From Periplaneta americana (Eukaryota > Arthropoda > Insecta > Blattodea > Blattidae): a stretch of 64,000 nucleotides of DNA. Below are positions 3,895 to 58,900 of this stretch, piece by piece; within the stretch, counting starts at the first letter, position 1; every line of letters begins with the position of its first letter. Location of the stretch: NCBI RefSeq assembly GCF_040183065.1, contig NC_091126.1, forward strand, positions 145,354,204-145,418,203, read 5' to 3'. The notes beneath the pieces are model-generated. The model had not been told where the DNA came from. It did no database searches and saw nothing but the letters and a program-made list of their open reading frames with translations. A program made the translations under genes and the position numbers.

Positions 3895-4310
3895 ACCTTT
3901 CCTCCTGACTCACCCTGTATACTCGCATTTTAGAATTGAACATTTCATCCCTCTCTGCTGATTGTAAAGCAACACTGGGTTTATCTGGAAATTGCTGATA
4001 TTGTCAATTACGAGAATAATTCATTCTTAATCAACATATTTCCCTCCCCCCACATCACTTTTAATTGTTCTAATAATGGTGCCACCTATTGAGGAATATC
4101 AGAACTGTTTCAAAGTTTGTCAACTTTTATCTGTTCAGACTTATCCCACAGTCTACTATATACAGTCACGAAGCTTGGGATGATTTGTTGCCAACGAGTT
4201 GCATTTCTCGCGATAGTTGCTAGCCGCTTGGAACGCTGTGAGTACTAGGAACAATAGACTGTGTCACTGCCATCGTGATCTAATACAGGCATACCATGTG
4301 ACTCGCTTAA

Positions 4311-4500
4311 AGACTGGTTCACAATAAACCTGGAACAGAAACGACAACAAGAACGAGAACGGAAATATTTTAAAAATAAATGTATTTAAATGTCAGCATT
4401 CACAATTAACTGTTGTGAATGCTTACATTTAAATACATTTATTTTAACAATATTTCCGTTCTCGTTGTCGTTTCCATTCCAGGTTTATTGTGAACCAGTA
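4311..4500. mobile_element. TTAA-flanked hairpin MITE
   Basis: Near-perfect palindrome of 190 bp (ACTGGTTCACAATAAACCTG at the left, its reverse complement at the right) flanked by TTAA at 4307-4310 and 4501-4504. The clean CACAG copy has a single TTAA here, so the insertion point is proven by comparison. TTAA targets are used by piggyBac and Kolobok elements; which one drove it cannot be told. Confidence 0.85.
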
Positions 4501-5058
4501 TTAACCCGATCACGAAGGGCGGCGTTTCAACCACATAAATTAATTGGAATGTATAAAGAGTAACATATATTTCTGTAAAATGTAGTGTAATTGCATTAAT
4601 AAAATTTAAAACAATGATTAGGGGACACTTCAGACATAATTCCTTGGGAGTTAAGGTGTAATATTATTTATGGTGTGAAAATTACGTTGTTCATATGTGT
4701 AATACCTGCCTTTATTTCGATTAAATATTGCGAAATTCTTGTACATTCATTTATGCAGATTCAATAATTTTCAGTTGCACCGCACGAATATTTAGATATG
4801 TTGAAATTATAGGTTATGTTTACTGTACCAATTGCCCCTTTCTGTCTAATTTTAGTGGCCTCCAATGCCCTGCCACTACATATGTATGTTATGTCATATG
4901 GATATTATAGGTTATGTTTACTATATTTAACTTACATTCTTATATTCGCAATTATACATTATAATTAAACATAATGTCATGCATGACACACGTCACATTC
5001 TATTTGTATTTTAATACTACAATTGAATACTGAATTATTGTATTTATATACTACCTAA

Positions 5059-5893
5059 AGGTACGATCACACGTCGCTACTTTTGCAACGCTGCAGTACA
5101 AAAAACTGCGCAACTCTTGTACTGCGACGTGTGAACAACGGTGCAACCCGAAAAGTAGCGGCTGCCGAACCTGCTGCCCGCTACTTTTCCATGCTGCGCG
5201 CAACTTAAAAGTAGCGACGTGTGAACAGGGTTCTCAGGGTTGCAGCCGCAGCATTTTTGATATCGGTTTTGTTGAAACTTTTGCTGCGGTTGCAACCAGT
5301 GTTACCACCCAAATGTGTCAATGATACTTTTATTGTTTGGATATATTTTAATGTTAAATGTGATGAAAATAAATTATTTGTAACAGTTATTAAATACACA
5401 ACACAGTCTGAGCATAATTGGTGACGATATAATTCATTTTTTAAATATTCCGTAGCGTAGTTCCAAACAGGAGGGTTGCCAACATTGATTACGTGAATAT
5501 ACTGTTGGTTATCATTTAAGTATATAGGCGTTTTTAAAAGCTTTATAGTAAAAATAATGCCAATTTCTGAATACTAGATACGACAGAAAAGCAACTAATA
5601 GATAAGGAAGCTTTCGCATGAGTTTCTTAATAATGCGAACATAACCACAAAATGTATATTGAGAAGTCAACACGGAGATGGGAACCTGCAGCATGACTGC
5701 GGCTGCAAAAGTAGCGCCTTGCGTGTGAACAGACTCGCAACCTCCAGTTGCTACTTTTGCAGCACTCGGGTTGCGCAGCACGAAAAGTAGCGTGCAGCGC
5801 GCTACTTTTGGCTTACGTGTGAACACGACACGCAACTTTTGCAGCTGCAGTATAAAAGTAGCGCTGCAAAAGTAGCGACGTGTGACCGTACCA
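5059..5893. mobile_element. TAA-flanked MITE with long complex terminal repeats (PIF/Harbinger-like)
   Basis: Ends GGTACGATCACACGTCGC and its near reverse complement (GGTACGGTCACACGTCGC from the right), flanked by TAA at 5056-5058 and 5894-5896. The uninterrupted site in the 55137 copy has one TAA. A motif AAAAGTAGCG (or CGCTACTTTT) recurs many times in both arms. No transposase was seen. The 3-bp TAA/TTA target suggests PIF/Harbinger; that is inference. Confidence 0.75.
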
Positions 5894-6215
5894 TAAGATA
5901 CGAAGTAACACAATCATACGTACACTAATTTCATAGGAGTGGTATAGTAAATTTTCTGTCTACAATTAAGGAAGGTAGATGTGCTAAATTAAAATCACAA
6001 TATAAATTCGTTTTTATTGAACCTCAAAATAGCTTCCATTCTAAACTTAAAATGTCGATGCAAACAGATTATGTTAACACGTAAAATTCTCTTCATATTA
6101 AAATAACACAGTTTTGTAATTATTTCTGCAACATATTATGCAACAAGAAGTGAACTGAACTTAGGGACACTTCACACTAAATAAAGCTTAGCAATGATAC
6201 GCAATAAAGTTATAT

Positions 6216-7767
6216 CACACTTTAGTATATACAGTTACGAAGCTCAATACTTACTAAATATGCAAACATAGACATTTGAAATATGCATCCACAGATAGTT
6301 GCTAGCCACCAGGATCGCTACTATCGCCTCATCACAGACTCTTTCCCTAGCAGACGATAAATGTATTGTACTTTTGATATCGTGTTCTTTTGAAAAATTA
6401 ACACCTTCCTTCCACTATTGAAATACGAAATACATAAGGTTTATTTTCATAAAGTATATATTATATTTTATAAACTCACCTTCCTGGATCTTTCGGAAGG
6501 ATAACTCTGACCTCTTTTTCTTAGAATTTATAGTACTACAAACATCTCCTTGTCCCATATTATCATTCATATTATTGTATTTTAGCCATTTACAGTTATT
6601 ACAAACGATAACGAACATTTCATAGTTTACACAACTTTTCATTACAATGTTAAATACGGCACAGTCAATCCCTTTTCGATCTAGACCAGGTCGTAATGTA
6701 TGTCCGAGTTTTCTATTTCAGTGTATGGAGCTCAGTGAATTATTATAACTTTATTGCGTATCATTGCTAAGTTGTTTTATTTGGTGTAATGTGTCCATAA
6801 ATTCCGTTTACTTCTTGTTGCATAATATGTTGCAGAAATAATTACAAAACTGTGTTATTTTAATGTGAAGAGAATTTTACATGTTAACATAATCTTTTCG
6901 CATCAACATGTTAAGTTTAGAATGGAAGCTATTTTGAGGTTTAATGAAAAAGAATTTATATTGTGATTTTAATATAGCACATCTACCTTCCTTGATAATG
7001 ACAGAAAATTTACCATACCACTCTTATGAAATTAGTGTACGTACGATTGTTACTTCGTCTCTTAGGTAGTAGATAAATACAATAATTCAATACTCAATTG
7101 TAGTATTAAAATACAGACAAATTGAATGTGCGGATTATCATACCTGACATTATGCTTAATTATAATGTATAATTGCGAATTTAGCAATATAAGATATAGT
7201 AAACAACCTATAATATTTCCGTATGAATGGCAGGGCATTGGAGACCACTAAAATTAGACAGAAAGGTTCAACTGGGACAGTAAACATAACCTATAATTTC
7301 AACATGTCTAAATATTCGTGCGGTGCAACTGAAAATTATTGAATTGTGCATAAATGAATGTACAATAATTTCGCAATATTTCATCGAAATAAAGGCAGGT
7401 AGGTCTATTACATATACGAACAACGTAATTTTCACACCAAAAATAATATTACACTTTAACTCGCAAGGAATTATGTCTGAAGTGTCTCCTAATCATTGTT
7501 TTAAATGTTATTAATGCAATTACACTATATTTTAGAGAAATATATGTTACTTTTTATGCATTCCAATTAATTTATATGGTTGATAACGCCGCCCTTCGTG
7601 ATCGGGTTAAGCGAGTCACATGGTCTGCCTTACGGCCTGTATTAGATCACGATGGCAGTGACACAGTCTATTGTTCCTAGTACACACAGCGCTCCAAGCG
7701 GCTAGCAACTATCGCGAGAAATGCAAAAAATCACTCCTAGCTTTGCGACTGTATATACTAGACTGTG
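6216..7767 (-). mobile_element. CACAG-family transposon, inverted copy nested in the first
   Basis: Reverse-complement copy of the 55137-56463 element, sitting inside the outer copy. Flanks GTTATAT (6209-6215) and GTTATAA (7768-7774) are a 7-bp duplication with one mismatch. It carries the same internal ORF on the minus strand (6642 back to about 6480) followed by a GTGAGT donor-like site. About 1552 bp. Confidence 0.85.
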
Positions 7768-7782
7768 GTTATAATATAATAT

Positions 7783-7965
7783 CACAGTCTAGTATATACA
7801 GTCGCGAAGTTCAATATGTAGTAAATATGCAAACATTAGATAGTTGCTCACCACTAGGATCGCTAATATCGCCTCATTACAGGCAATGCAAAATAGAACC
7901 GTCACAGTCTATTGTTTCTAGGACCCTCAAAACTCAAGCTTCGTGACTGTATATAGTAGACTGTG
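7783..7965. mobile_element. CACAG-family short MITE (about 183 bp)
   Basis: Both ends match the family terminal repeat (CACAGTCTAGTATATACAGT ... ACTGTATATAGTAGACTGTG). The interior has the family's AGGCGATA/TCGCCTCAT and CAATAGACTGTG-like blocks. It is inserted beside the AT-rich junction of the inverted copy, so the target duplication is blurred (ATAATAT left, ATATAAT right). Confidence 0.8.
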
Positions 7966-8243
7966 ATATAATCTAACTGAGCTCCATACAGTGAAATAGA
8001 AAACCCGATCATACATTACGGCCGAAAAGACACTGACTGAGCCGTATTTCGCTTTGTTGTGAAAAGTTGTGTAAACTGTGAAATGTTCGTCATCGGTTGT
8101 AATAACTGTAAATGGCTAAAATACAATAATTTGAATAATAATATGGGACTAGGAAGACGTTTATGGTACTATAGATATTGTAAGAAAAAGAGGTCAGTGT
8201 TATCCTTCTTCCGAAAGATCGATGAAGGTGAGTTTATAAAATA

Positions 8244-8281
<38 letters not shown>

Positions 8282-8485
8282 TATTTAAACCTTATGTATT
8301 TTACATTTCAATATAGGAAGGAAGGTGTTAATTTTTCAAAAGAATACGATATCGAAAGTACAATACATTTTATCGTCTGCTGGGGAAAGTGTGTGTGAGG
8401 CGATAGTAGCGATCCTGGTGGTGAGCAACTATCTATGTTTGCATATTTAGTAAGTATTGAGTTTCGTGACTGACTGTGCTTATCC

Positions 8486-8942
8486 CGTGTTTAGAAAGAT
8501 CACTTACACGATCAGAAAATTGCAGGCCCGATATCTGTGAACGGTTGTGTATAGTACTTCTTGCTTTCACACCATGTTCTTGTATTTCCATTTTTAACTA
8601 CTAGATATCGCGTTTTCAGTTATTTGAATATTAGTTGTCAGCCTTTGTATATTTGATCTTTTCTCCCATTTTATCAAATAAACACCTATATTCTCTAGGC
8701 CTCGGTTATCTATTACATGAAATTGATTAGCGTTGATAACATTTAAGACGTTATGTTATGTGGTGTTTGTGTCGTTTTGCACGAATGAATCGTGTGAAGT
8801 TTTTAGTGTTTGGTGATTGTGTTAAACTGTGGAATTAAATTCGCATGTGGTATAATGCTTGCTTCAGCTATTGTGATGAGCGATTTAGATAAAAATATTT
8901 GTTCTGCTTGATTCCTGATTGTGCAGTCATACTGTAGATGTG
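8486..8942 (+). promoter_or_regulatory. Presumed 5' flank / 5' UTR of hook
   Basis: Stretch between the nested CACAG element (ending 8478 plus its 7-bp duplication) and the hook ATG. No repeat was recognised. A minimal upstream ORF, ATG-TGA at 8938-8943, overlaps the start codon by one base. No TATA box was called with confidence; promoter position is inference from location only. Confidence 0.35.
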
Positions 8943-8981
8943 ATGGATAAAGCTCATCTGTGCGAAAGTTTGATGAAATGG
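8943..8981 (+). CDS. hook: hook exon 1 (residues 1-13, start codon)
   Basis: Encodes [13 protein letters not shown] and ends in phase 0 at donor gttagt. It joins exon 2 ([10 protein letters not shown]) to give the expected Hook N-terminus (short leader, SL-x-x-W, then L-x-APH). The start was chosen because it is the only ATG in frame with this match. A second ATG five bases upstream is followed at once by TGA, overlapping the start (ATGTGATG). The 5' UTR and any non-coding first exon were not resolved. Confidence 0.85.
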
Positions 8982-10131
8982 GTTAGTAACACGTCAGCTG
9001 AGTTTCTTGTATGATGGTTTAGATTAACAAGCACTGATTATTTGAATTCCGGATATTTTCTCATTTGATCACAAAATGTAACAATATTTGGTCTTGTGAC
9101 ATATTGCTATCTGCTACTAATTCAGCAATTGGATAATACTGGCTCTTGTTCACGGTTTACTGTCATTTGAAAAGTAGTAATTATAAACTTGACAGCAACG
9201 AAGAACGTTAGCTGAAAATTAACTTTAACCCTCAACTAGTATTGCTTTTTTAATGTACGTTAACGATACTTATCCTTATGGGTCTATATTGACCCATAGA
9301 TACCAGTTGAGGGTTAAATCTCAACTTTAAAACTACTAACAATAGTTGGGAGTATTTAAAATTATTAATTCTAATATATAGGCCTAACGTAAATGTTGAA
9401 TGAAATTATACTTAAAGTAATTAATAGTAGTGCTGTTATCATAAAGTACATTAATGCATGTAACTAAGTTTATAAAGGTTTTCGTAATGCAACTGTTCTT
9501 ATGGGAACGAAGGGCAATGGACCTGATATTTACGTGTGTCATTTTTGCGTCAGTCACTTGTCATTAATCTATCACCGCATCAAATCGTACAAAACCTTTT
9601 AATTGATAGTGAGGCTACATGTTCACTGATTATTTATCTCTTCATCAAACCCTCCCTAAACTTTTCACTGACAGTGGATTTACTTCTTAACCTCTCAACA
9701 AACCTTACATAACAGTGTCACTGATAGTGGGGCTACTTGTCACCGATCTGTCTCCTTCAAACTCTCCCAACCTTGCCACTGGTAGTAGGGCTAGCAGGGC
9801 TACTTGTCACTAATCTAATTTGTCATCAAACGTTACATAACTTTATCATTGAGAGTGGGGCTAATTTTTACTAATCTGTCTCCTCATCAACCCCTATTTA
9901 ATCTTGTCACTGACAGTGGGTTTATTTGTCACTAATCAATCTTCTCACCAAATCATTCAAACCCTACCTAAGTTTGTCATTGTATGTATTTATTCACACT
10001 GCAATGGGTATATACCCGGTGGCAGTGGTAACTAGTTACACTCAATAATGACAATAATAAACTTATTAATTAAAAATACAGTTAATAATAATACCAATAA
10101 TTAATACAAATAATTAATACTAACAATAATT

Positions 10132-10174
<43 letters not shown>

Positions 10175-13100
10175 GTAGGGAATATCCTAAACTAAATGAA
10201 GTCATTGACATTAGGGCTACTTGTCACTCATCTCCTCTACAGATCGCCCCTAACTTTTTTTGTCACTGACAGTGGGACTACTTTCCACTAATCTGTTTCC
10301 TCATCAAACCTTCTCTAACATTGTTAGTTACATTGGGGCTACTTGTCACTTATCTCAACAAACCTTTCCTAACTCTGTTACTGGCAGTGGGACTACTTAT
10401 CACTAATCTCTTTTCCTCATCAAATGCTCCCTAAGCTTGTCATTGATAATAGAGCAATTGTCACTAATCTATCTCCTCATTAAACTTTTCTAACCTTGTC
10501 ACTGATAGTGGGCCTAGGAAGACTACTTGTAACAAATTTAATTCATCAAACCATACATAACCTTGTCACTGGCAGTGGGGCTGCTTTTCACTAATCTATA
10601 TTCTCATCAAACCCTACCTTTTCTTGTCACTGACATTGAGGCTATTTGTCACTAATCTGTCTCTTCTTCAAACTCTACATAACCTTGTCAGTGACATTTG
10701 GGCTGTTTGTCATTAATCTGTCTCCTCATTGAAGCATTCCTAACCTAACCGGTGGGGATAGTGGACCTCTGTTTAAAGGAACAGAGATTCGGTTTGTGAT
10801 ACATTTTCTGGACAAGGAGAAAGTTTTCAAGTTTTCTGCATTTTGTCATTTTCTGTGTTATTAATAGGCTACAGTAAAACTTGTTCATATTGCAAAGGAC
10901 CAAATTTATTTTCCAAATTTGGACAAGTTTCCACATTGTACAGTAAGGTCCGAAAGTCTTGTCATGTATGTTGATGTGCATCCATTTTGAACATGTCATA
11001 GCAGATGTGTGACAATAGTTGATACTTTACATTCCAGCTTGTTTAGTGATCCAGAACATCAGTATGAAACAATCATTTTCGTGGCACAAAATGATGCGGC
11101 GCCATGTCCTGTATGAAATTTTCCGCAGCAAAGACGGTGTAATTTCCCTGAATGCCTCCCTAACAGCTTGCTTCAAATCTTCAATTGTCTGGTATCGATG
11201 TTTTGAGACATGCTGCTTAATTATTTCCCGAAGGGAAATTTCACTGCCTTTGCTGCAGAAAATTTCATACAGGACATGGTGCCACATCATTTTGTGCCTT
11301 GATAATGATGGTGCCCATACTGATGTTCTGGATCAATAAACAAGCTGAAACGTAAAGTGTCAACCATTGTCACACATCTGCTATGACATGTTCAAAATGG
11401 ATGCACATCAACATACAAACGGGGGAGGGGGTGAAAAGATTTTCGGACCTTACTGTATATAATTATATGTTTTAACAAATTTTATTAGGGACATACAGTG
11501 AAAGCCCTACCTAACGTGGACTGATATATGGCAGATTTGGATATAATGTGGTGAAAAGTATGTCCTTCACAAAAAGTGACTGTTATTAATGAGTGAATAG
11601 GCCTATAAATTTTATGGATTTTTTTTCTCCCACAGTGAAATTTTCTTTCCCCATAGTGTGAACATAATGTAGAATTTTGTATGCAACCGGGTCATTTCAA
11701 GCAATTAAGGACAAAGGTATTAAATTTTAAAATTATTAGTTTGTCTTAAACTTCAATATTTCCTCGAAGTAGGCTACATGAAGTGAACATTCACAACATT
11801 AATATATTTTCTTATGGGAATGCATTATTCTTGTATTTTTGCTCGAGTTAGGTTGGTGATTATTAGTGCTTGTGCTTTCAACACCTATATGCAAGCATCT
11901 CTTTTGGTGAACAGAATTGTCTTGTTCTGAGGTTTATATTATACAGTGTGGAAGTGAAATAACCCTGCACATGGAAAGGTACGATAGGTTACACTTATAT
12001 GAATTGAAAACCTATAATATGTTCTGTGGTTAAATGCATGGTTAATTAGAAAATTAATTTGGAAGTTCCAGCAGTCTGGCAACATCGTCGCTAACACACC
12101 CCTTCTCTATTTATGTAAAAGTTGAATGAACTCAGGCTGTCTAACTGCCTCCACTTGCCTATCTGGCTACAGTGTTTTGATCTTGGCGCATTGTTCAGTG
12201 GCTTCAAATTAAGCGATTTATAAATTAAATTTACACGAAAACCGTCCATGCTGTTAAAATACGCCAGAGGGATGAATTATTTTTTATTAAATTTTCTATC
12301 AATATGAACAAAAAGTAACGATGCTACTCACAGCATTACTAAATTTGGGAAAAGAACATTTTTCTGAGAAAACTCTGAAATTCCCACCAATAATTATAGC
12401 ATTACACTTTTTTTTGTTAAATACAACATGAGGTATTTGCTCCGAAATATATATATAATTCTAAACAGGCCGACAGTGGCCTAAGCTATGTTATGACATG
12501 TTTAGACTTGAATATTACTTGTGTATTTTGCTTATAATTGGAGATAAATACAACCACACACCATGTAACAGCGTTAATAAAATAACCTTTTTTTTCATAG
12601 ATATGTTAATAACCACAGTTGTCCCTTAAATTGTTCAGCCCTCTTAGTATTCATTCTTATCTTCAATCATATCAAAGATATGAATTTTTGATATAGACGA
12701 GCCTATTTTGAAATCTGAAAATATGTAACGTGAGTGACCGTAGCATGATTTACGCAAAGATAACGTTAGTTACGACGACACTGAGATGAAATTCTACCCC
12801 AATATTGCCGTAAATTAAAGTTAAATTTTTTAAAATTAGACAGAAAGGAACAGCATGGAGTTTTTAGGTGAGACCTATACATACCAGTGTTACAAAATTT
12901 ACAATAAGTAGGCTAGTGAGAGTAACTTCAAATACTATTTATAATTAATCCATTACAAACCTGAAAAGTGAAACATAGTAATTTGTAACGTAAATTACGT
13001 ACATTATAACAAGCGTTTTTTCTTGTGAACATGACTAAAATGATGCTGGAAATTAGACACTTTGTAATCTCATACCATGTGTTATGGTTTTTAATTATGA

Positions 13101-13433
13101 TAAATGAGAACGATTTTTAAACTACTAGGCCTAGTGTAAGAGGCTAATGTCTGGCTAAAATTATTATAACGTGAGTTAAAACCGTTGCGTACGAGATTAT
13201 ACAAGCTGGCGCATAACATGATCTAGAGTGGGTCTCTGAGCGTCATGACAATTTCTGCCGCTAGGTTCGCCTCGCAGTTCTATTAAATTATGAATAGTTC
13301 CATTACTAAGCATTGTGTATCGTCAAAATTCATTTGATTAACATTTTCAATTCCTTGTTTTTCCTTCAGATTTTGTTCCCTCTTAGTCGTTTTAATTGCA
13401 GAAAGTGAACTACCGATGTCTTTTACTTTCAGA

Positions 13434-13478
<45 letters not shown>

Positions 13479-13842
13479 CATCATCGTATAGTTCTTAGTT
13501 TGTCTTGTCTTAAGACAGTCAGTAGCGTTATTAAATAGTTTCGAGGAAAATAATTATGATTAAAAGTCATTTATAATGGCGAAATATTCTACGACAATGG
13601 TTAATTATTACTGCTGAATATTGACACATATACAATTTGCATTATTTACGATACAACATACGCAGCAATGCGATTTTAATATTGCGCGTGCTGAGTTTAG
13701 TGTAACGTACTCCCCTCATCCTCCAAGCCATATCAAATATTATTATATTACGAGCAATAAATAAATAATAATTATTACAATTGAGGTAGTCAGCGTAACA
13801 GTGGTCTAAGCCACTTTTTAATGTAGAAAACACAAGTTAAAG

Positions 13843-13899
<57 letters not shown>

Positions 13900-14670: not shown

Positions 14671-14725
<55 letters not shown>

Positions 14726-15909: not shown

Positions 15910-15989
<80 letters not shown>

Positions 15990-18900: not shown

Positions 18901-21900
18901 GATTTGGAATCCTCTACTTTATAATCATTGGTCTTAATGAAAAAATATTTTCTTTCTTAAGATATCTACAATTTTAAATTTAATAATATTCCGAATAGGT
19001 TTAATTGCATTATCTGAATTTTGTACTTTTCTATTCAAATATATTCTATTTCCCTCTTTCACAATTTTTGATAAATTACACTGTACTTCTTGCAGTATTT
19101 AAGAACATGAGGATCATTACATTGCAACTCATTACATATAGATTCTTCTTTTTAATATATGAGATTTTGAAGTCCCTGCGTTATCTACATGTTTTTAATT
19201 TTGAATTTTTTCACAACATTGAGTCGAGAACATCCACTGAAGTGATTATGAAATTAAGTGAAAAATTCAATACATTTACTCTTAATATCAGTAGTACCAG
19301 TATCATATGTTTTTCCAAGATTCATTTTGTAGACATAAATGTAAATAATCACTAGATACTAGTTTTTGAATTAATATTTTGAAATTGTTCAGTGACATTG
19401 GAAACACTTAGGATTTGTTTATCATGTTCAGACAAGCCATTGATTATAGGTTCTGTCGAATAGGAATTCAGTCTAATTCTGTGTACAAAACATTTATCAA
19501 TGGCTGTGCTACTTCAGTGCTACAAATTCCATATGAGATTTCTGAAGTCTTTTCTTTAGAAATTCAGTGTTGGCTATAAATATTAATAAATAATGTAAGA
19601 AATACGAATGATTGTAGTTATAAGTCTGATTTACATTATAAAAAGCAAGAAGTTACATTCCTCGGCAATATTCGAACTTTCGATGTTTGGTTTTGTCGTC
19701 CAACGCACAACCACGGACCTATTCAATGCTTATGTTAATAACCTACAATTTAGCTGTAGCAATGTGGTGTCATAATTTGGGGTTTGTTTACTTAATGTAA
19801 TTAGATTTAATTTGATTAGTTTCGCAACAATTGGACTTCCTGTTATATCCTGTTATTTAGATATTTAATTTAGGGTTGATTTATTAACTCTTACTATGCA
19901 AGATGCCTCTTATTTCAATAATTCTATATCACGTTAAATAGTCATTGTCTACACTAAAGCATTATCGTCATCCCTCATTTCTCATCGTAATGGCGAACCG
20001 ACGTGACATGAGACAGCGAGTTATAGCTCTAGTTGAGGCTGGATATGGGGCTAGATCTGCTGGCCGTTTGGTTGGTATTCCTGGAAGTACAGCCGCGAGG
20101 TGGGTTCATCGTTACCAAAATTTAGGGGAGGTCAAAAATTGCCCTATTCCTGGGTGTCCGCGGATTTCTTCATTGGAAGAGGATGCTCTGTTATTCGAGA
20201 CAGTTCGACAGGACCCCTTTCTGACTGCTAACGAAATAAGCGCAGCATCTAACATTCCCGGCTCTTCACAGACTGTGATCAGCAGGTTGAGGAACCGCGG
20301 TATTAGGAGCCGGAGGGCTGTGCAAATGGAAATATTGGGGGAAGCACAAGCTGTCGACCGTCTTGCCTTCGCTACCAATCGAGTGGATTTCGATTGGAGA
20401 AATGTAATTTTTTCCGACGAAACAACCATCTCGAGTTATTACAAAGGTCCTGCCCGTGTCTATCGTGAGGATGGTCTCTGACATGACCAGCGCTATGTGC
20501 ACCGACGTGAAAGATCGGGGCGCTTTAGCATATCGTGTTAGGGGTGGATGTCTTACGATGGACCTGGCGTTATAGAACGAATCGGTGACCGGTTTAATGC
20601 GGGAACTTACTAGCACATTCTGGAAAATTTATTCCTTCCTTCCGCCCAAGAACGTTTTCCCGAAGGAACATTTCTGTTCCAGCAGGATAACCATCTCGTG
20701 CACTATGCTGCAAGCATTCAAAGATGGTTTCAAAGGAGACCCGAGATCGAAATCATTAATTGGCCTCCGAAGTCACCTGATTTGAATGTCCTCGAAAATT
20801 TATGGATGGAATTGAAAAAGAGAAGAATAGCCACCTATACCCACCGACGCCCTCGAAATCGTGACGAATTGTGAGATCAAGTTGTTGACACCTGGGAAGA
20901 TCTCGCCGGGGATCAGAACTTATTCCACAATCTCGTGACATCCATGCCGGATCGACTTAGAGCTGTAATAGAAGCTGATGGTGTGTGGACAAGATTTTAA
21001 GTTAACAGGTCTCTCTTTGTTTCTTATGATTTTTGTTTGAGGAAGAATACTTTTAACATCCAAGTAAGATTTATTTTTTGACGAGGTTCAGCCCACTTGT
21101 AAGACCCAGAAATTGGGCATAAATTATTCCATATTTTTCGACAAATTAGACAGTCGAGGATCTCTGAACAAATTAATTACACCTCAATAAAAAAGAAGTT
21201 TTACCCGGGATCGAACACGAGACGTTTCGGTTATACATTGGAACCGACACGCTACTATATGAGCTACCGAGACAAGACAGTGACAGCAGCAGTCCAGAAT
21301 GTAGATCCCTTAGCAGGCATTTGCCATTCGGTACAGTGAAGCAATGATATTTTGTGACTCGAGCTATGTTGTGAAATCCTGGCCTTAAATGGCAGTCTTC
21401 TTCGTGATCCTTATTCTGGTGCTTGTCCTTGTTGTGGTCCTTATAACAATTCTTGTACTATTTGTCATGGTATGTATCATTATGGGATATCGAGTGAACC
21501 GCGCTGTAGAACTTTAACTTCCGACGACCAAGAATCGTCTCATTCTTTTTAAGGGTAACTGTACAACTTTGAGTAACTTTTCGTTATTACCTGCAGAATA
21601 ACTTAAATTACTTCACTTTGAATTAGGATTGCGTTGGACAGAAATGTCACTTCACTTCCCCACAATCTGTTGGGTGGCTTACAAACAAAGTTGAGGTGCG
21701 TAGTAAATAAATTTCAGAAATTGTTTTATTTTTCAAGCGAAATGTTTGAAAAGTTATTGTTTTGATTGATAGTCTAATATTGAAATTACGGCCATCAGTG
21801 TAGCTGAGGCATTAGACATGTTTGTCAGGCAATCTGATCAGGAGCTTTGCTTGGGCTGATTACGTAGTTAGGTATTTCTGAGGTTTTCCCCAACTGTAAG

Positions 21901-24900: not shown

Positions 24901-25684
24901 TTGTTTAAACTTTTAAAATATTATTAATGTATTTGAAGTAATATTGTTAAGATTTTTTACAGGTGGGACAAAAATAATTGGAAACGCATTTTTGTGATAA
25001 ATGTTAAATCGAACATTTTCTGTTCTTCTGTTATTGTCAGAATTTTAATATCGATATTAATGAAGAAATAGAGGTTTAAAAAATGATAAATAATGCTTCC
25101 AAGATCCTTAAAATATATATTCACTTAGCAAAACAACTAAATAAAGTTGCTGGCAGTGTTGCGAGTGGGACATTATGGGGGGAACGAAAAAGGCAAAGTT
25201 TCATTCTGAATTTATTTTCCTCTTTGTATTTCAACAAAACTTAATTACAACTCTTTTTCAGTAGTAAATAACCACTTTTATTAAAAACTTGAGGTGCTGA
25301 CAATATGGAGGCAGCTGATCTCTCTGCACCACATAGTTCATAACAGTGTTGAAATCATGTGATAATTGTAGAAAAAAAATTATTATTTGACATTGACACA
25401 TAAACTATTTAAAATTATACATCAAACGAAATTGTTTAAAGTGCTGAAACTTCAAAATATTATTATTATTAATATTATTGTTGTTATTAATAGCACAGTC
25501 TAGTATATACAGTCACTAAGCTTGAGTTGTGAGGGTGCTAGGAACAATAGACTGTGCCGGTATTATTTTGCATTGTCTGTAATGAGACGATATTAGCAAT
25601 CCTAGTGGTTAGCAACTATCTATGGATGCATATTTACTATGTATTGAGCTTTGCGACTGTATATACTAGACTGTGTTAATAGTC

Positions 25685-25748
<64 letters not shown>

Positions 25749-38092: not shown

Positions 38093-38136
<44 letters not shown>

Positions 38137-41100: not shown

Positions 41101-41461
41101 TGTGGAGACAAAAAATAAATAAATAATGGAAAGAATTTTGTACATTATATTTCTTTAACTACGAGGCGCATCCAGAAAGTAAGTTTCCCGATTTTTTCCC
41201 CTTGAAAGTAAACGTAATTAGCCGTGTCAATTGCGCATGCGTAAGAGATCTATGACGTATCAATCATATGCCAGTCTGACAGGTCCCGCCTGGTGCCAGT
41301 AGCGTGGCAGCAGTGGTCCGAAATGGAAGCTCTTATTCCTTCTGCCGCCGCCTGCGAGGGTCGGTCGGTGATAAAGTTCTTTAATGCACGAAGAATTGCG
41401 CCAATTGAAATTCATCGGCAGCCCTGTCAGGTCTATGGGCCGAACCTCTCTCTCTCCCTCC

Positions 41462-41515
<54 letters not shown>

Positions 41516-44500
41516 CCTCAAGAAATTCCTGTCCTCCGGTGAGCGTTTTGGCAATGAGGAAGAGCTGAAGACGTGTCACACGCTGGTTCCATTCACAGGC
41601 GGCAGAGTTCTACGACAGAGGGATACAAAAGTTGATCCCACGATACGACAAGTGTGTCAATTCTGATGGTGGCTATGTTGAAAAATAGCTGAAACATTGC
41701 TGTACCTGTTGCCAATAAATGTTTTCCTGAAAGTGTGTGTTCTTTTTTTTTAAAAAATAGGGAAACTTACTTTCTGGATGCGCCTCGTACATTTATTCAC
41801 ATTGCTTCAGTGATGTTATATGGAGATAGTCAAAATTACATTAATATTATTAAACTAAAGGGAATTAATTTTAAGAGAAAAGACAAAGAAATGTTATTGC
41901 TACATTTTGTCGACAGACTACATCACAACAATAATGGCTATGGAGGAGTCAGTTCAGCAAGTGATAATGCAGTCCATCCAGGAGCTGGACAGAAGCAGCA
42001 TTGGATCCAACACCACAAGTCTTGTGATGAGTTCTGGACCGGATGTTGACCCTCAACTGCAGAGGATACTGGCAGAATTGGAAGCTGCTGCAGATGCGAG
42101 AGACCAAATGGCACAGCGCTGTCACGAGTTGGATATGCAGGTAACTGTACTGCAGGAGGAGAAGGCCAGTGTTGTGCTGGAGAACCAGCGACTACAAGAC
42201 CGGTTGCGGGAGTTGGAGGTGCTTGAGGGACCTGGTACTGGCACCATACACCGGTACAAGGAAACGCGAAAACAGCTGGATGCCCTGAAGGAGGAGATGT
42301 TTAAGATCGAAACATGTGAGTCATTCATCTTAGAGGATAGCTTTGTATAAGTCGTGCTAAATATTCTTGGCAGTTGGAATGTCTGGGTATTGGTCTCATG
42401 GCTATAATCTTTTCGCTGTAAGAAAAATCCTGATGTAAACAATAGCACATGACTGAAGTGAGGCTTCATTGGCCACTGTTTGGCGCCATAGATTCTCAGT
42501 ACGTGTTCCCGCCTACTGTTATACATTCTGTTTAATGTTAAGCAATTGTCGTTACTCGTCAAGTAGGCCTAACCTCACTACTATGTGTTCATTTGCTTAG
42601 GAAACATTTACTTTATAATTACTGTAATTAAATTATTTTTAAGTCTTATGTCTTCACAATGGACAGTTGAGGGTACAGAAGCCATACTTCAGTACCACGA
42701 GCTCGAGTGAACAACTACGAGCTCAAGGGACGCCAGCTTGTTACAAGAACAGACTACCTCGGTATTACTGTTGGTATTCATCCGCGTTCATAGTACATAA
42801 CAAAATATAAAAGTAGCTTTTCTTTTACATAGCGTTTTACACATGAGTGAAGTTAAATATTTCATCGTATTTAACAACTAGAATTCAATTTTTTATTTTC
42901 AAATAATACAAGGTTGTGGTTTCCTAATACGAACTATATTTTCCTGCGTCATGTGAGTGTTTCGACTGTGAGCCAATCACGGGTATGACAGCCATGTGCT
43001 TGTGTTTACATTAGGATTTTTTTTACAGCGAAAACAGTATATGTGGTGAGCCCTTTTCAGTTCTCGTTTTTGGGTTAGGTGAAATTTATGACTGTTGCTA
43101 GTAGTTTAATCTATTAGGGTCGTATTCATAGACAAGACTTTGGACCAAAGTTGACTTTGGAAAGTACAAAGTCACCATTTTCCTATTCACAGTCGACACT
43201 TTGACGAAAGTAAACTTCCATCGTGACTTTACTTCGAAGTTGGCGATAATCTAGACTTTGACTTTGACTTTCGTTAAGAGTACATTAATGTGAAGGGATA
43301 TTAAAAAAATATGTAGTAATGCTGTTGCATCAGTAATGGTTACCAGCATAAGAAAACAATGATTGCATTAGTTTTCCTGGAGTTTAATATACATAATTAG
43401 TGTTACTGTATTAACATTTTATCTCATGACTTTTTGAATCACAAATGCCATATAACTTTCCAGCACGAGATGATTACCGCGTGAAAGTTGAAATGCAGGA
43501 GAAAGAACTCTTAGAACTTCAATCAAAACTTGAAGAGATACAGAAAATGGCCGATGAAGCCCGGCACCTGAAGGACGAAGTGGATATTTTGAGAGAAACA
43601 GCAGATAAGGCAGTGAAGTATGAAGCTACAATTGCTTCATATAAAAAGAAACTCGAAGAGTATGGTGATTTGAAACGGCAAGTGAAGATGTTGGAAGACA
43701 AGAACACAGACTACATGCAGCAAAACATGGAGCTGGAGGAGGTATGTGCTCTCTTATTACTTACTTACAAATGGCTTTTAAGGAACCTGCAAGTTCATTG
43801 CCGCCCTCACATCAGCCCGCCATTGGTCCCTATCCTGTGCAAGATTATTCCAGTCTCTATCATCATATCCCACCTCCCTCAAATCCATTTTAATATTATC
43901 CTCCCATCTATGTCTCGGCCTCCCAAAAGGTCCTTTTTCCTCTGGTCTTCCAACTAACACACTATATGCATTTCTGGTTTTGCCCATACGTGCTACATGC
44001 CCTGCCCTTCTCAAACATCTGGATTTAATGTTCCTAATTATGTCAGGTGAAGACTACAATGCGTGCAGTTCTGCATTATGTAACTTTTTCCGTTCTCCTG
44101 TAACTTCATCCCTCTTAGCCCCAAATATTTTCCTAAGAACCTTATTATTATGGATGTTTAAATTTATGTCGAATGTTGTTCATATTTTGTGTTGTTAGTT
44201 TTTCTTGATCTTGTTCAACATAGTGATATACACAGGTATTATCAAGGGAATTTAGTGAAAGGGAATTTTAAGCATCTTACAAATGTTGAATTTATAGCAG
44301 TGTAAATGCAAGATAATCGTGCATTAAATGTAATTCTTCTGTTTTCATGTTAACAATACATTAATGTGAAGGATATATATAATTTTTAAATGTATACAGT
44401 AATGACATAGCACCAGTAATAGTCACCAGCATGACGAAAGTATTGTGTGCATGTACATGTACATGGTGTTCTTATTTTTACGCATACATAAACAGTGCCA

Positions 44501-45620: not shown

Positions 45621-45694
<74 letters not shown>

Positions 45695-46316: not shown

Positions 46317-46380
<64 letters not shown>

Positions 46381-49300: not shown

Positions 49301-49910
49301 GCATTTCACCTGACAGTGTTTTTGTCAATATGTTTCTCTGTTTCAGAGGCTTATCATCGAACGAGATTCACTCAAAGAAACAAACGAAGAACTGAAGTGT
49401 TCACAATTAGCTGGGGGTAACTGTACGAGTGGAACAACTCTTCTGGCTGAAACTGTTTCAGAAAATATGATTTCTCCTGAAATAAAGTATGTGTAAATTT
49501 ATAATAGCAGAATTAGTACTGAATGTAATAATGGTTGGTGGTGGTGGTAGTGGTGGTGGTGGTGGTGGTGGTGGTGGTGGTGGTGGTGGTGGTGGTGGTT
49601 TGCACTTGGGCGTGGATTCGATTCCCACTTGGCTGATTACCTGGTTGGGTTTCTTTCCGAGGTTTTCCCCAACTATAAGACGAATGTCAGGTAATCTATG
49701 GTGAATCCTCTGGCTCATGGCAAATACCATCTCACTATCATCAATCCCATGATCGCTAAATAATCTAATAGTTGATACAGTGTCGTTAAATAACTACAAA
49801 AAAAAAGAAGCTGTAACCATTGGTGTTAGCTGCATCATCATTTCTTCATTGAAATGAGTATTATTGTTGTTGTTGTTATTATTATTATTAATATTATATT
49901 ATTATTGTTA

Positions 49911-49965
<55 letters not shown>

Positions 49966-52900
49966 GTTATATGGATTGTGTATGAATTTAATGTGGCTAC
50001 TTTCAGGGAAAAACTGGTGCGATTGCAACATGAAAACAAAATGTTGCGATTGAATCAGCGTGGGCCTGAAGATGATAAACTGTCAATGGTACAAGCACTT
50101 CTTGATGAGTCAACTCAGAGAGTGAACCAGCTGCGTATGGAGAACAGGTGAGTTAATTCTGTAGCTCAAGGAAATGTAAAGTTCTCTAACCAATGAAAGT
50201 TGTCAACATTGGTAACAAGCAAAACTCATTTTTCTGATGGCTGCACTATGATATGGATTCGAATTCGGTTTGGGTTAACTGCCCGTTTGGGGCTTTTATT
50301 TTTTCTTTCTAACTTTAAAGTGAATGTCAGTTAATTCCATGGTGAATCCTCAGACCTATCTTGCTAAATACCATCTCACTATCACTAGTTTTACCATCAC
50401 AAGATAACTGCAGATTTGGTACAGTACCATTAAATCCATTAAATAACCAATTAAATATCAATGAAAGAGTTCAACAAATACAATTATTTGTCATTTCTTA
50501 TGGTTTACTACTCTAGCTGTAAATGTTATATTCAGGCATATTAACAACAACAGAGATAAGATATTCAATTTTCAACAGAAAATAAAACAGAAGGGATTAC
50601 AAATCACTAAGATGTAACTAATAACAAGGGAAGACATAAGAATGGACACTAATGTTGGAGCCTAGATACTGTTACTAGTCCATGAAACAGATTCTGGAAG
50701 ACAATGCTAGCAATCCTTCCAATAGGGATGCACAATAAGCCTTTTAGTCTGACGTGCAAGGGGCCTTTAAGACTCCTTAAAAATCCCCCCATAACCTAAC
50801 CTAAGATGTAACTAGGAGCATCGGCCTAGGTAGCGTAGTCGGTATAGTGCTGGTCTTCTGAGCCCGAGATTGTGGGTTTGATCCCAGCCTAGGTCGATGG
50901 CATTTAAGTGTGTTTAAATTCCACAGGCTCATGTCAGTAGATTTACTGGCATGTAAAAGAACTCCTGCAGGACAAAATTCCAGCACACTGGCGATGCTGA
51001 TAAACCTCTGCAGTTGTGAGCATCGTTAAATAAACCATAATTTAAAAAATGTAACTAGGAGCTGCTGAGAAAGAACACGATCATGATACAGAATTTGTTA
51101 CGCAGTTGGCACTTCATTCCTGACTTCATTCCAGTTGTGAATGTAAGGAATGAACTCTCTCTTCTTACGTCTAGTAACTTCAACAGTTGTGGACTGATAG
51201 TTGGCTGTAGATAGATGCTGTGAAATGAAGTACTTTTTTTTCGTGATTAACTGCTATTTCACATAATTGTTTATTATTACTCAGTGGTTTACTTTACTTC
51301 ACGTTGAAAGTTGAAAACAATTACAAGGGCAAACTTTTTTTTCTAACGTTATGTACAGACTAAAACATGACTATTAGGTGCATGGAAGGAGCATGTATAA
51401 ATATATAATAGATGCGAAACTTGCTGAGTTTCCTGTAACACATGCTAGAGGCGCTAATGTAGCAACATATCTTGCTGCCATCTGTTGGTAGGTGGAGAAT
51501 TTATTACATCTATCAGCGCACCAAGGAGCGAAAACAAAAACTAATTACTCCATGCATTTAGCAGCTCTCCTGGTCACTTCTGTATGCTGATGACGCAGTT
51601 ATATATAGTGTTAAATTCAGTCCTCAATATGCTGTCTCTGCAGTTCAAAACCATGTACTTCTATTAGAAGAATGGCTTAAAGAATGGCGTATTTCTTTAA
51701 ATCCTGAAAAATGTCAGTCAGTAATTTTCTCCAAGTGTTTAAAAAGACCTCGTGACAAAATAAAAATATGCAATCAAGAAATTCAATACAGTGACCATGT
51801 AAAATATCTTGGTATTACTCTTGATAACAAGTTGTTATGGCACAAGCACATAAAATCTGTAACAACTAAGAGCTCTCTTAGAATATCTCATCTTTACCCC
51901 CTGTTCAAATCTCCTGTTCTCAGTCTAAGAAGAAAAGTTATGCTCTACAAAATGCTGATTTTACCAATCCTAACTTACGTTGCCCCAGCTTGGTGTTATA
52001 TTCCAAAAACAGTCTTTCAACCTCTTCAAATTGTTCAAAATAAAGTGCTCCAAATAATACATAATTCAGACTGGTACACAGCAAATGCACAAATACATTT
52101 TGATTTGGACATGACATTTCTGAAAGACTCATTACGTGAACAAGTTAAGAAGTTTTATAACAGTGCAAATTCAAGTGAAAATCCATTCATCAAGCGTCTT
52201 GGTCAATACAATGCAAATTTCTACAAGAAAACACAGAACACCAAAATCCTATTTAAGTGAATAACATGCACTTTTCCACAACCTCTGACTTCCTTAAACC
52301 TACACTAATGTCTCTGTGCCCAATTGTTTTGACAGCTGGACATGAACAATATTTGTGCATCATTATTTGAATTTACACTAAAATACGAAAAGGCAGTAAA
52401 CATATTTGTTTTGGAACTTTATCAATAAATTGCTGAATGTAAAGGGGGGGGAAAAAAAGCTCTCCTGGTGACGAAAATGTTAAATTATGCAGAAAGTATT
52501 GCTTCCTTCCCTCCCTCCCTCATCTCTATTCTCAATGAACCCAATTTAAAATAAAACATTTACATTTTTATTTCTCACACCACCTTCCACTGAAAATTCT
52601 TACCGGAGCCAACAGGAAGATAAGAGAGATCTATTTTACACTACCCGATTAAAATATAACCAAACAGAGAAGAAAATAAAGCAAAAGGTTAGATAATTGG
52701 GATTGTATTCTTTGGGTATTTAGTGTACAGCACAATGGAAAAGTCTGCAAAAACTACTTAAATAGTTCAATTTATTATATTACCACAGTCTAGTATATAC
52801 AGTCACGAAGCTCAATACATAATAAATATGCATCCATAGATAGTTGTTAACCACTAAGATCGCTAACATTGCCTCATTACAGACAATGCGAAATAGTACC

Positions 52901-55900
52901 GGCACAGTCTATTGTTCCTAGCACCCTCACAACTCAAGCGTCGTGACTGTATATACTAGACTGTTGTTGTTATCCAAAGCTGGGCTTTGACAACGAAGCC
53001 ATTAGCGCTCTTGTTCTCCAATATTTCTCTGTGGTGGATCCAACTGGTAGAACTTCACAGGTTTGTAGATGTTCTGCAGTCATTTCTTCTTCTTTGTGGC
53101 ATAGAGGACAATTAGGATTCGTGTAAATTCCTATTTTATGCAAGTGTTTGGCCAAATAATCATGTTCCGTAAGCAGTCTGAATTTTGCTACGGCAGTTTT
53201 ACGTGGAATTTCTGGAATAATTTCTGTTTCTTTTATTAAAATGTTCCATTTTTTGTCTTCGGCTTTCTTACATAGTGCTTGGTTTTGCTTGATTTTATAT
53301 TTGTTTTTAATTAGTCTTTTCATGGATTGAAAAGGTAGGTTTTTATTTGTATTCTGAACTAAATTGGAGCCTTTTTTGTCAAGAAAATCAGCAGTTTCAT
53401 TTCCAGCAATTCTGCAATGTGCAGGTATCCATTGCAATTGAATTCTTTTCTGTAGTTTTTGAAGTTGAATCATTTTGTGACATTCTTTAATTTGGACTGA
53501 CATCATTTTATATGAATTTATTGCATATAATGCTGCTTTAGAATCAGAGAGTATGACAGCATTTTGAAATTTATCTATTCTCTATAGTAGGTGTTGGGTG
53601 AAATATGAATAGCCATTATTTCCGCATCAAAATTTGTTGTGTGGTATCCTGCTGGTTGATAAAATGAGAATAACGCACACGTAATTCCTGATCCTTAGTT
53701 GTTATCGATAGTAGACCCGTCTGTGTAGATATGTAACCATTCTTCTGGTGGGTATCTATTGTTCACAGCTTCTAATGCTAGTGCTTTTAGTACAGGTTTG
53801 GAAGTTTCAGATTTTATAACTGGTTTTTCTAAATCTAGCCGAACATTAATTGGTTTGAGCGTTAGAGGGTTTTCTCTGGTTGAAATGTTTTCTTTAGAAT
53901 TAGGGAGATTCAATTCTGTTTTCATTTCCGAGACTTTGGACAGAAAACTTGTTTGTGTTTTCAACTTGGTTGGTTGTAACCTAATATACTAGACTGTGAT
54001 ATTACTATTACTTTACAATACATTCCACAACACTATTTTTACAAGGTCCATAAACATCACTGCTTATACACACACTTAGTATACTTTATGTCCACTTATT
54101 AGCAAATTTCTGGCTGCCATCTTGTCTTCTCGAGCATCATCTGTTCGTCTCGAATGAACGAATAAATAGAGAACTCTGGGTAATCTACCCAACACGTAGT
54201 TCTAATGTTCACCACCTATGATGTCAGGCACTGATCATCTTATTTGAACCCCTTCCGTCAGATGGTGCTGACCGCAGTTTCGCATCCTATTATATATTTA
54301 TCCATGGAAGGAATCTGTTAAGTGATATGAATCTTGAAACTTCGACCATCAGGACATTTGGAAGCTGCATCTTGTAAATGACTAGAGAATGTGAGCTGGA
54401 TTATGACAGTATAACCATGACATAACAGAAGATTTGGAATTTTACTTCAGATACGAAAAGTTGAATGAATAAGTTAACAACAAACACATCTGTTTACGTG
54501 CTGTTAATGCTAAGGTTCAGTTATACTGTTTTCAAAGACGTAACATAGGCCTACATAATTTCTAACAATTTGTAGCATACTATTAGTCAAACATTTTGGT
54601 AACCCAGGTTCGCATCCCTGCAGATCTAAGTGGAATTTCTAGTGGACAAAAATGGTGCTTGGTTTTATATTTTACAGTTTTCCTACTGACATTTAACCAT
54701 TGCTTTATTACTCATTATGAAGCAGTGCTATGTAGTTGACCTCCAGTGCTGCACTTAGGGCAAAGTCTATGGCAAAAAGAACTACAGCTTCGGCATATCA
54801 CTCCTATAAGTGGGCCTTGGGCGAATGATACAAGGTCAAGTTTCTGCCATTGGATAAATAAGTAAAAGAACAATATTTACTACAAAAAGAGAATTATAAG
54901 ATCCATCTTTAAATTAAAGGGTATGGACTCATGTAAACTTTAATTAAAACAATATAAAATTTTAACATTTTCATCCATTTATATTTATAAATGTGTTATT
55001 TTCTTTAAACAGAATGAGAATAAATAAAAGAAGAATTCAAATTTTCGTAAGTATAGCATGCGAAATGCGCATCTAGTCAATATTGAAAATCATAAACTTA
55101 AGAAAAATATGTAAAATCGTCCGCTTATAGTGTCATCACAGTCTAGTATATACAGTCGCGAAGCTTGGGGTGATTTTTTGCATTTCTCGCGATAGTTGCT
55201 AGCGACTTGGAGTGCTGTGTGTACTAGGAACAATAGACTGTGTCACTGTCATCGTGATCTAATACAGGCCGTAAGGCAGACCATGTGACTCGCTTAACCC
55301 GATCACGAAGGGCGGCGTTTCAACCATATAAATTAATTGGAATGCATAAAAAGTAACATATATTTCTCTAAAATGTAGTGTAATTCCATTAATAAAATTT
55401 AAAACAATGATTATGAGACACTTCAGACATAATTCCTTGCGAGTTAAATATTATAGGTTATGTTTACTATATCTTATATTCCTAAATTCGCAATTATACA
55501 TTATAATTAAGCATAATGTCATGTATGATACTCCGCAAATTCAATTTGTCTGATTTTAATACTACAATTGAGTAATGAATTATTGTATTTATCTACTACC
55601 TAAGAGACGAAGTAACAATCGTATGTACACTAATTTCATGACTGGTATGATAAATTTTCTGTCTTTATCAAGGAAGGTAGATGTGCTATATTAAAATCAC
55701 AATATAAATTCTTTTTTATTAAACCTCAAAATAGCTTCCATTCTAAACTTAAAATGTTGATGCGAAAAGATTATGTTAACATGTAAAATTCTCTTCACAT
55801 TAAAAGAACACAGTTTTGTAATTATTTCTGCAACATATTATGCAACAAGAAGTAAAGGGAACTTATGAACACATGTCACTAAATAAAACTTAGCTATGAT

Positions 55901-58900
55901 ACGCAGTAAAGTTATAATATAATAATTCACTGAGCTCCATACACTGAAATAGAAAACCCGAACATATATTATGGCCTGGTCTAGACATTGACTGTCTAGG
56001 CATTGACTGTGCCGTATTTCGAATTGTTGTGAAAAGTTGTGTAAACTGTGAAATGTTCGTTATCGGTTGTAATAACTGTAAATGGCTAAAATACAATGAT
56101 TTGAATAATAATATGGGACAAGGGGACGTTTGTTGCACTGTAAATTCTAAGAAAAAGAGGTCAGAGTTATCCTTCCGAAAGATCCAGGAAGGTGAGTTTA
56201 TAAAATATAATATATACTTTATGAAAATAATATATAAACCTTATGTATTTCGTATTTCAATAGTGGAAGGAAGATGTTAATTTTTCAAAAGAACACGATA
56301 TCAAAAGTACAATACATTTTATCGTCTGCTAGGGAAAGAATCTGTGATGAGGCGATAGTAGCGATCCTGGTGGCTAGCAACTATCTATGGATGCATATTT
56401 CAACTGTCTACGTTTGCATATTTATTAAGTATTAAGCTTCGCAACTGTATATACTAAACTGTGGTGTCATTATGTTTCAATATGTTACCATTGGAGATAC
56501 AAACTTTATCTTATATAAAATTCAAAGTGAAAGTGAAACAGTACTTAACCGTTCAGTGTCCTTGTTTTGTGAATGAATTCTTAAATTTACCGTATAAAGT
56601 ATTACTTGATATTTCAATTTATAATGTATTTTTAATGATGTGTATATTCATGTATGTGGTAATATATTGAATGATCTTTCACTCACTTATTCACTTTTAA
56701 ATGTGAAATTCATTTTTTAAGCGAATTGTATAATAATTTCCTTAGTCTATGGTAAAAAACGTGGAATTAGTTATAAAATCGTACTAAGAGGCAGGAAGAC
56801 ACAGTGAATTAAAAAAATTGGCAATAAAGTGAAGTAAAGGAAAAATAAAAACTCTTCCAAATCATAAAGTGTTCTCTATAATTTAAATCCTTAAAATCGT
56901 AACCAGTAAGGAAATAAATTTTATCTAACATTCGAGCTCTGATGACAAAATTGGCTCCTGAGAATTTGAGAACACATAAGCAACATTAATAATAAAATTG
57001 AATAGAGGATGAGGAGGAAGAGAGCATAATGACAAAAAAGAATTTGGGAATGGAAACAGTAATGTTAATAATTTGGCATTGTTTCCCCTTGCTTTCGAGG
57101 AATTAATAACTTAATTACTAGCTTCAGCATTGAATGTTATGAACACCATTCTTTATTGAAGAGCACAAATTTTAAGGTTGCTGGTAAAGTGGTACGGTAT
57201 GATACATTATGCTGCTTGTTTTTCATGTTTTAAATTGTATGTGTATTCACGTTCTGTGATAAATAGCAGCAAATGTACATTACCGGTCAAAAGTTTTTGA
57301 TCACTTATCACAACTATGGGTTTGTGGTTAAAACAGGGATTTCGTTTTGAATATTCTATCATATCATAATGCTAGAGAGAGAAAATATTTATTTTGTTGG
57401 TCTATTTAGTTTTTCCGATGTGTTTGTACATTGAAATAAAGTATATACAGTAAAACCTCGCCCGCTTATTATGCTGTCCCATGTAATACAGTTTTTTTGC
57501 CTGGTCCCTGCATGTTTCATATATAACGCCTTTATAAAATACCCCATTTGTTGTGCTCATTTCCTGCATAATACACTATTTTTGTGGAATATTTTCTATG
57601 TCATTTTCAGCAATATACTGTAACAACAATGAAACATTTTGGCCATTGAACTCATTGGTGCCATGTGCCATTAACCTGAAAAGTATTGGTATTCGACCCT
57701 ATACCTGCGCACTTAAGCCTTCATACTGTACAATACACCTACCTCTTCTTACGCTTTCTTATTCGACTTTTTACCTGCGTGCCTACATACAGTTACAATA
57801 CCCCCACCCTTTTGCTAACCCTCTCTCTCCTCACTCGGCCATAATAAAATTCTGGAAATGTTTGCTGGTCAGTTTGTTGTCCTTTAGTGTACTGAAATGT
57901 CTGTAAGTGTGATTACAATGAGTGTTAAACGAAAAGGTCTTTCTGTGTCGGAAAAATTGGAAATCTTACGAAAGTACGATGAAAACAGTACTCTTAATCA
58001 GAGACAACTCTCTGATTCATTAGGAATCCCATCATCGACATTAAGGACGGTGATAAAAAATCGCGACTCAATCTCTGCAGCTGCGACGTTGGGAGGATGT
58101 AAGCGCAGGAAAGTGAAGTGTGGTAAACATGACTTGGAGAACATGCATGCGGCAAACAACTATAAAGGAGTTTTTTTTTTTCGAAAGAATTAAGTACAGT
58201 ACATATTGTAAAGTCCCGCGCCGTGGCGTCGTGGTCTAAGGCATCCTGCCTAGGACTCACGTTACGGAATGCGCGCTGGTTCGATTCCTCATGTGGGAAG
58301 AAATTTTCTCATGAAATTTCGGCCAGTGTATGGGACTGGTGCCCACCCAGCATCGTGATGCACTTGGGGAGCTACGATAGGTAGCGAAATCCGGTTGCGA
58401 ATGCCAGCTATAACGGCTGGGGGGGATCATCGTGCTAACCACACGATACCTCCATTCTGGTTGGATGATCGTCCACCTCTGCTTCGGCATGTGGGCGTGA
58501 GGCCAGCAGCCGGCTGGTTGGTCTAGGCCCTTCACGGGCTGTAGCGCCACGGATTATATATTACATATTGTAAATGTCTTTGACATACAGTACAGTAATT
58601 ACATAATGGAGTAATACTGTATTAACTCTCATGAACAATATATTTCAATAAAGAAAAATGTTAATGTATACTGTATATAAGTCAAAATTAGTATACCCGC
58701 CTAACATGCGGTCGCAGTTAATACGCGGTTTACACGCGGTCCCTTGAACAGCGTCTTATTGGGATTTTACTATAGTTGTTTTCATACTGATCGAAAACTT
58801 TTGACTGGTAGTGTAAGTTCATTGTTCTTCCTGTGAGCAGAAACTGCAGTACCAACAACTAATTGGATTTGCCATTTCTACTGATCTAGATTGGCGAATC

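Follow-up and report, generated by a model that had tools for sequence, protein, structure and literature searches.

Described P-Type Transposons and the CACAG Family

Target site duplications of 7 bp are described for 1360 and Galileo, both of the P superfamily. For 1360 (Hoppel) of Drosophila melanogaster 7 bp is the modal length, found at 274 of 279 sites (PMC3276498), and Galileo duplicates 7 bp with the consensus GTANTAC, three copies having 8 bp (PMC4168063). The Galileo target is surrounded by AANGT..ACNTT, those of P and 1360 by ANAGT..ACTNT (PMC4168063).

We describe here a transposon family with CACAG ends, six copies of which lie in the 64-kb stretch of cockroach DNA that was analyzed (the window). 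The six are very probably internally deleted, non-autonomous members of one cut-and-paste family of the P superfamily, of the same 7-bp type as 1360 and Galileo. Placement in the P superfamily is based on the target motif, a THAP exon and transposase remnants. A preliminary description of this DNA had regarded a constant 7 bp as unusual; its list of duplication lengths gave 8 bp for P and missed the 7-bp members 1360 and Galileo, and 7 bp does not lie outside the known superfamilies.

The CACAG family resembles Galileo in its 7-bp duplication, the GTANTAC core, the palindromic target and the THAP transposase, and also in that a full transposase is lacking from many copies (PMC4168063, PMC2775673, PMC3688188). 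Two pairs of ends with 8-bp duplications in our sample recall the three such Galileo copies (PMC4168063). Unlike the ends found here, with terminal inverted repeats (TIRs) of ≈30 bp, those of Galileo have TIRs of ≈0.3–1.2 kb (PMC3573991), and the outer motif, AANGT..ACNTT in Galileo but ANAGT..ACTNT here, also counts against the likeness. With 1360, compared by duplication and target, the family shares the modal 7 bp and ANAGT..ACTNT (PMC3276498, PMC4168063), whereas the 1360 core GTTNAAC fits the CACAG-family sites less well than GTANTAC does. The P element and Pdre2 show further similarities: the Pdre2 TIR starts with CA, a THAP domain is combined with an RNaseH domain carrying a GTP-binding insertion domain, as in the related locus L044 described below, and there are subterminal repeats and internal-deletion derivatives (PMC7776569, PMC10983969), but their duplications are 8 bp. 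The P-MITEs of Anopheles gambiae are likewise small non-autonomous copies that retain both P-element ends, but again with 8-bp duplications (PMC1562414).

We therefore read the CACAG family as non-autonomous, very large and new, but as belonging to a known superfamily and not as a new superfamily, its newness as a family being judged from a string search of the literature. The claim of the preliminary description that no described family has these ends agrees with this search, in which, among the 20 papers listed of 68 that matched, the 17-letter end strings were unmatched and only 10-letter ones found a counterpart. Titles and opening lines of abstracts on P, 7-bp and cockroach transposons contained no report of the family. 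A search of viral contigs for the family returned 0 exact matches.

CACAG-Ended Copies in the Window

Using the 20-bp end CACAGTCTAGTATATACAGT with up to 3 mismatches, 12 TIR matches were found in the window, whereas 100 shuffles gave 0.01 on average. They resolve into six copies, two of which are nested inside an outer copy at 4147–8478. The six copies with shared terminal repeats reported earlier were thus recovered, with the correction that the first of them is a single 4.3-kb copy containing two of the other five. Besides the TIRs of ≈30 bp there is imperfect subterminal similarity, and, as previously noted, both ends and the subterminal blocks are common to the long (1327 and 1552 bp) and the short (≈182 bp) forms.

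The outer long copy (4147–8478, plus strand) is broken by four insertions and flanked by the duplication CTTATCC at 4140–4146 and 8479–8485. Its right TIR is short by ≈12 bp and is absent from the 12 matches. Nested within it in reversed orientation is a long copy of 1552 bp (6216–7767, minus strand) with the flanks GTTATAT/GTTATAA (6/7), whose target sequence is the interior of a sister long copy and is uninterrupted there. The second nested copy is short (183 bp, 7783–7965, minus strand, the strand being set by the left-end subterminal block) and has ATAATAT/ATATAAT (5/7) in an AT-rich run. The outer copy also carries a 190-bp foldback insert at 4311–4500 with a TTAA duplication, and an insert at 5059–5893 that has inverted ends (GGTACG...) and is flanked by duplicated TAA, which we take to be PIF/Harbinger-like.

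A short copy of 182 bp is found at 25494–25675 (plus strand) with the perfect duplication TTAATAG. The short copy at 52784–53998 (minus strand; ATATTAC, 7/7) is split close to one of its ends by part of a LINE with RNase H and zf-RVT similarity (52965–53983, minus strand), itself flanked by the 14-bp duplication ATATACTAGACTGT at 52951–52964 and 53984–53997. The TIR match at 52946–52965 is the inner right end of this copy, parted from its flank by the LINE insert. The last copy, at 55137–56463 (plus strand), is long (1327 bp) and has GTGTCAT (7/7).

In total, four of the six copies have perfect 7-bp duplications, one agrees at 6/7 and one at 5/7, and none has a perfect duplication at 8 bp. Two sites drawn at random from the window agree at all 7 bp with a frequency of 0.00021. 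The earlier tally, in which the 5/7 case was called blurred, was reproduced on all six flanks.

Abundance and Duplication Length in the Genome

The genome (3.23 Gb, 91 contigs) contains 71,476 ends at ≤2 mismatches (35,635 and 35,841), or approximately one per 45 kb, while the reversed-pattern control gave 9 matches genome-wide (5 and 4). Duplications were sampled at 49 loci, made up of 48 loci taken in list order, all with an exact end and all on a single contig, within its first 9.8 Mb, and the locus L045. From 36 of these 49 loci we obtained 39 end pairs; the other 13 gave no pair.

Perfect duplications of 7 bp were seen in 14 of the 39 pairs and of 8 bp in two, with none at 3–6 or 9–11 bp, and 13 further pairs agree at 6/7. 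Counting against a fixed 7 bp are the 12 pairs at neither 7/7 nor 6/7, which include the two perfect at 8 bp and some false pairings; 10 pairs show neither 7/7, 6/7 nor a perfect 8 bp. A predominance of 7 bp in these 39 pairs is the outcome of the end search and length table that had been proposed as a check. The 7- or 8-bp duplication typical of the P superfamily is seen among the 39 pairs and in the empty sites described below.

The same counts bear on whether these could be hAT elements with shortened duplications. The hobo target motif likewise has T as second and A as second-last letter (PMC3276498), but hobo duplicates 8 bp at 1196 of 1198 sites (PMC3276498), while of the 39 pairs here 14 are perfect at 7 bp and two at 8 bp, and the THAP and P domains described below also speak against it. 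As 7 bp predominates and not the 8 bp of hAT elements, we rejected this assignment as very unlikely.

The K2P distance to the 182-bp consensus has a median of 0.057 for 34 short copies (31 sampled and three from the window), a sample biased towards young copies. The locus L070 was considered as a new long form and rejected; by eye, its interior is an insert of ≈1.1 kb with TG...CA ends, which lies in a short copy and is flanked by 5 duplicated bp (AGACT).

Empty Sites and Target Motif

A 1314-bp copy in L045 (L045:8326–9639), flanked by the duplication GTAATGT, is inserted into another P-type transposase gene, and paralogous empty sites are available for it. All eight that were compared are uninterrupted and have the 7 bp once. 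They are equal to the L045 flanks in 70–72 of 73 letters, and one of the eight loci has one letter of the 7 bp changed. Together with the target motif below, this demonstrates that insertion occurs at a palindromic site and duplicates 7 bp.

The target palindrome of the CACAG family is ANAGTAWTACTNT. In 27 unsymmetrised sites G, T, and A occupy positions 1–3 in 17, 21, and 22 cases, and T, A, and C positions 5–7 in 15, 23, and 13 cases. A second set of 31 sites consists of 26 of the 27 sampled sites (one false pairing dropped) and five of the six window sites (the unresolved one dropped). Here the mean match to the Galileo core GTANTAC is 4.06 of 6, compared to 1.65 for the window background (z 12.6), and that to the 1360 core GTTNAAC is 3.26 (z 8.5). 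The combined motif from the strand-averaged, i.e., symmetrised, table of the 31 sites is A-N-A-G-T-A-W-T-A-C-T-N-T. As this matches both GTANTAC and ANAGT..ACTNT, the CACAG-family target has the core of Galileo combined with the shoulders of P and 1360. The palindromic target ANAGT..ACTNT known for the P superfamily (PMC4168063) is thus seen in the 27 as well as the 31 sites.

The targets are dispersed AT-rich sites. Dada elements, with duplications of 6–7 bp, fit the length range observed here (PMC3706591), but they target small RNA genes, and Dada-U6 and Dada-U1 are described as being without terminal inverted repeats (PMC3706591), whereas the CACAG family has TIRs of ≈30 bp. Contradicted by both TIRs and targets, an assignment to Dada was rejected and is the least probable of the readings considered.

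Coding Remnants in CACAG-Ended Copies

The 1314-bp copy in L045 contains a THAP N-terminus, MGQGGDVCSAINCSNSKRKRPELSFFRFLKDSE, starting from base 237. This exon 1 matches PF05485 at positions 1–34 of 87 with an E-value of 0.0016, falling short of the cut-off, and its best match to a solved structure is a weak one to THAP11 (E 0.73). Directly downstream on the same strand, 37 residues match the transposase encoded at the locus L044 (see below), within its last 46 residues. The local score of this C-terminal match is 85, whereas 500 shuffles gave at most 59, 96 chunks of the window at most 49 and 48 non-P loci at most 42. A tblastn search at default settings missed it, and full local alignment or relaxed seeding was needed; with relaxed seeding the match has an E-value of 6e-9 and a second piece adjoins it in another frame (E 5e-4). 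The catalytic core is missing between the N- and C-terminal pieces, a loss that resembles the internal-deletion derivatives of P.

In the window, a decayed counterpart of THAP exon 1, followed by GTGAGT, could be recognized at 56113–56191 (plus strand) by comparison with L031/L045, where the exon is better preserved, and equivalent remnants start near 8143 (plus strand) and 6558 (minus strand). On their own, the window's three long copies gave no THAP match in Pfam or PDB, and local alignment of the copies at 55137–56463 and 6216–7767 gave no C-terminal transposase match.

An N-terminal THAP domain, as expected of the P superfamily, is thus present in part: short of the cut-off in L045, and in L044 with exon 1 just short of the cut-off and exon 2 over it. 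Alternatively, the family might belong to an undescribed superfamily that makes a 7-bp stagger, the THAP and P pieces in L045 being captured host or foreign sequence. Two observations would fit this: no transposase can be recognized in the window's long copies themselves, and a complete autonomous element was not seen. In L045, however, the N- and C-terminal P pieces keep their order, both on one strand and close to the left end; L044 carries this THAP exon too, again behind a CACAG-type end, and the palindromic target is the one known from the P superfamily. We consider an undescribed superfamily improbable, and the P superfamily is the assignment followed below.

A Related P-Type Transposase Gene

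Searching the genome with the P RNaseH model gave 2964 first-look candidates; scoring was carried out for 150 of them, every one of which matched. Among the P-type genes, L009–L018, L021, and L023 form a family in which ≈95–99% similarity between copies extends over as much as 3.4 kb, with several of the copies at low contig coordinates (0.9–6.7 Mb). A 1157-bp insert outside the CACAG family was seen in another P-type transposase locus (L042:3016–4172).

The locus L044 (C2:108,993,000–109,002,900, minus strand) combines a CACAG-type left end with a P transposase frame. Its left end equals the family end at 17 of 20 and 24 of 30 letters, with 75% identity over 48 bp. The ATG of THAP exon 1 is found at base 156 from the left end and the exon is followed by a GTAAGT donor; it matches THAP just under the cut-off (E 2e-4, 22.5 bits) and shares 21 of 33 residues with the L045 exon. 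An 865-aa frame has four domains over their cut-offs, namely THAP at 29–87 (E 4e-7), the N-terminal RNaseH part (2e-34), the GTP-binding insertion (1e-22) and the C-terminal RNaseH part (2e-8). No right end could be recognized in 3.3 kb downstream, and we therefore regard L044 as a relative of the parent element and not as a proven autonomous copy. It has a sister copy at C16:87.35 Mb.

Since the ends are so common, an end near a P gene means nothing by itself. In 36 P loci (161,427 bases) two ends at ≥17/20 were found, no excess over the end density, and one of them is the L031/L045 insertion. The L044 end counts because of its orientation, its distance, the shared exon and the 75% identity over 48 bp. 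L031 had been considered as an autonomous copy and was rejected, as it is a CACAG-family insertion into another P gene. A de novo search for TIRs and duplications around the six P genes L039–L044 gave no convincing boundary. The preliminary description had proposed to look for a longer copy with a DDE-type reading frame. L044 has a transposase frame and a CACAG-type left end; among the loci examined, none combines a full transposase with CACAG ends on both sides, which counts against the P reading.

Transposition and a Possible Footprint

A P-type transposase with a THAP domain, encoded by related elements elsewhere, could act in trans on the non-autonomous copies. It would bind subterminal sites together with the TIRs (20–30 bp), cut out the element and integrate it at palindromic ANAGTAWTACTNT sites, making a stagger of 7 bp. 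We infer that the transposase of L044 or a close relative moves the CACAG copies, and binding sites for it can be predicted in them. Comparison of the long copies revealed a shared block, GATAGTTGCTAGC, ≈55–85 bp from the ends, which the short copies retain at one end. As THAP sites are found at similar distances in Galileo and P (≈70 bp and 41–63 bp from the ends, respectively; PMC3688188), this block is a candidate binding site by analogy.

Remnants in which two TIRs meet were also searched for. A single case was found in the 296,528 bases examined, a 30-bp TIR–TIR remnant at L044:6626–6655 with the perfect 7-bp duplication GTAAAAG. A control with the ends facing outward gave two matches, both read as neighboring copies. 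The P transposase makes a 17-nt staggered cut at excision (PMC7776569), and by analogy the remnant looks like the scar of such a cut and is possibly an excision footprint. It is also possible that it represents a very short deletion copy.

Scale and Context of the Family

The family is of the 7-bp P type and has the target palindrome of the P superfamily in a cockroach. It is otherwise ordinary biology, a MITE family with a parent of a known kind. At 71,476 ends, its scale would provide a natural library for studying target choice and excision by P-type elements. The repeat section of the cockroach assembly paper gives Tc1-Mariner and hAT as the main DNA elements and leaves P unmentioned (PMC12774602); the CACAG family may therefore be among the unclassified or misclassified repeats. 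Tentatively, the cockroach P lineage might have given rise to a P-derived MITE population that ranks among the largest (tens of thousands of copies), might have kept the GTANTAC core of Galileo far from Drosophila and might leave P-style TIR footprints of 16–17 nt, a combined proposal that we find somewhat doubtful. If it is true, the odd excision chemistry of P could be read from many natural scars.

Other Features of the Window

Two open frames, at 41859–42350 (Pfam E 2.7e-18) and 43430–43957 (E 3.9e-39), match the HOOK coiled-coil protein and are probably exons of a host Hook gene. Mariner-like and Tc-like transposase fragments are found at 1917–2300 and 19942–20481.
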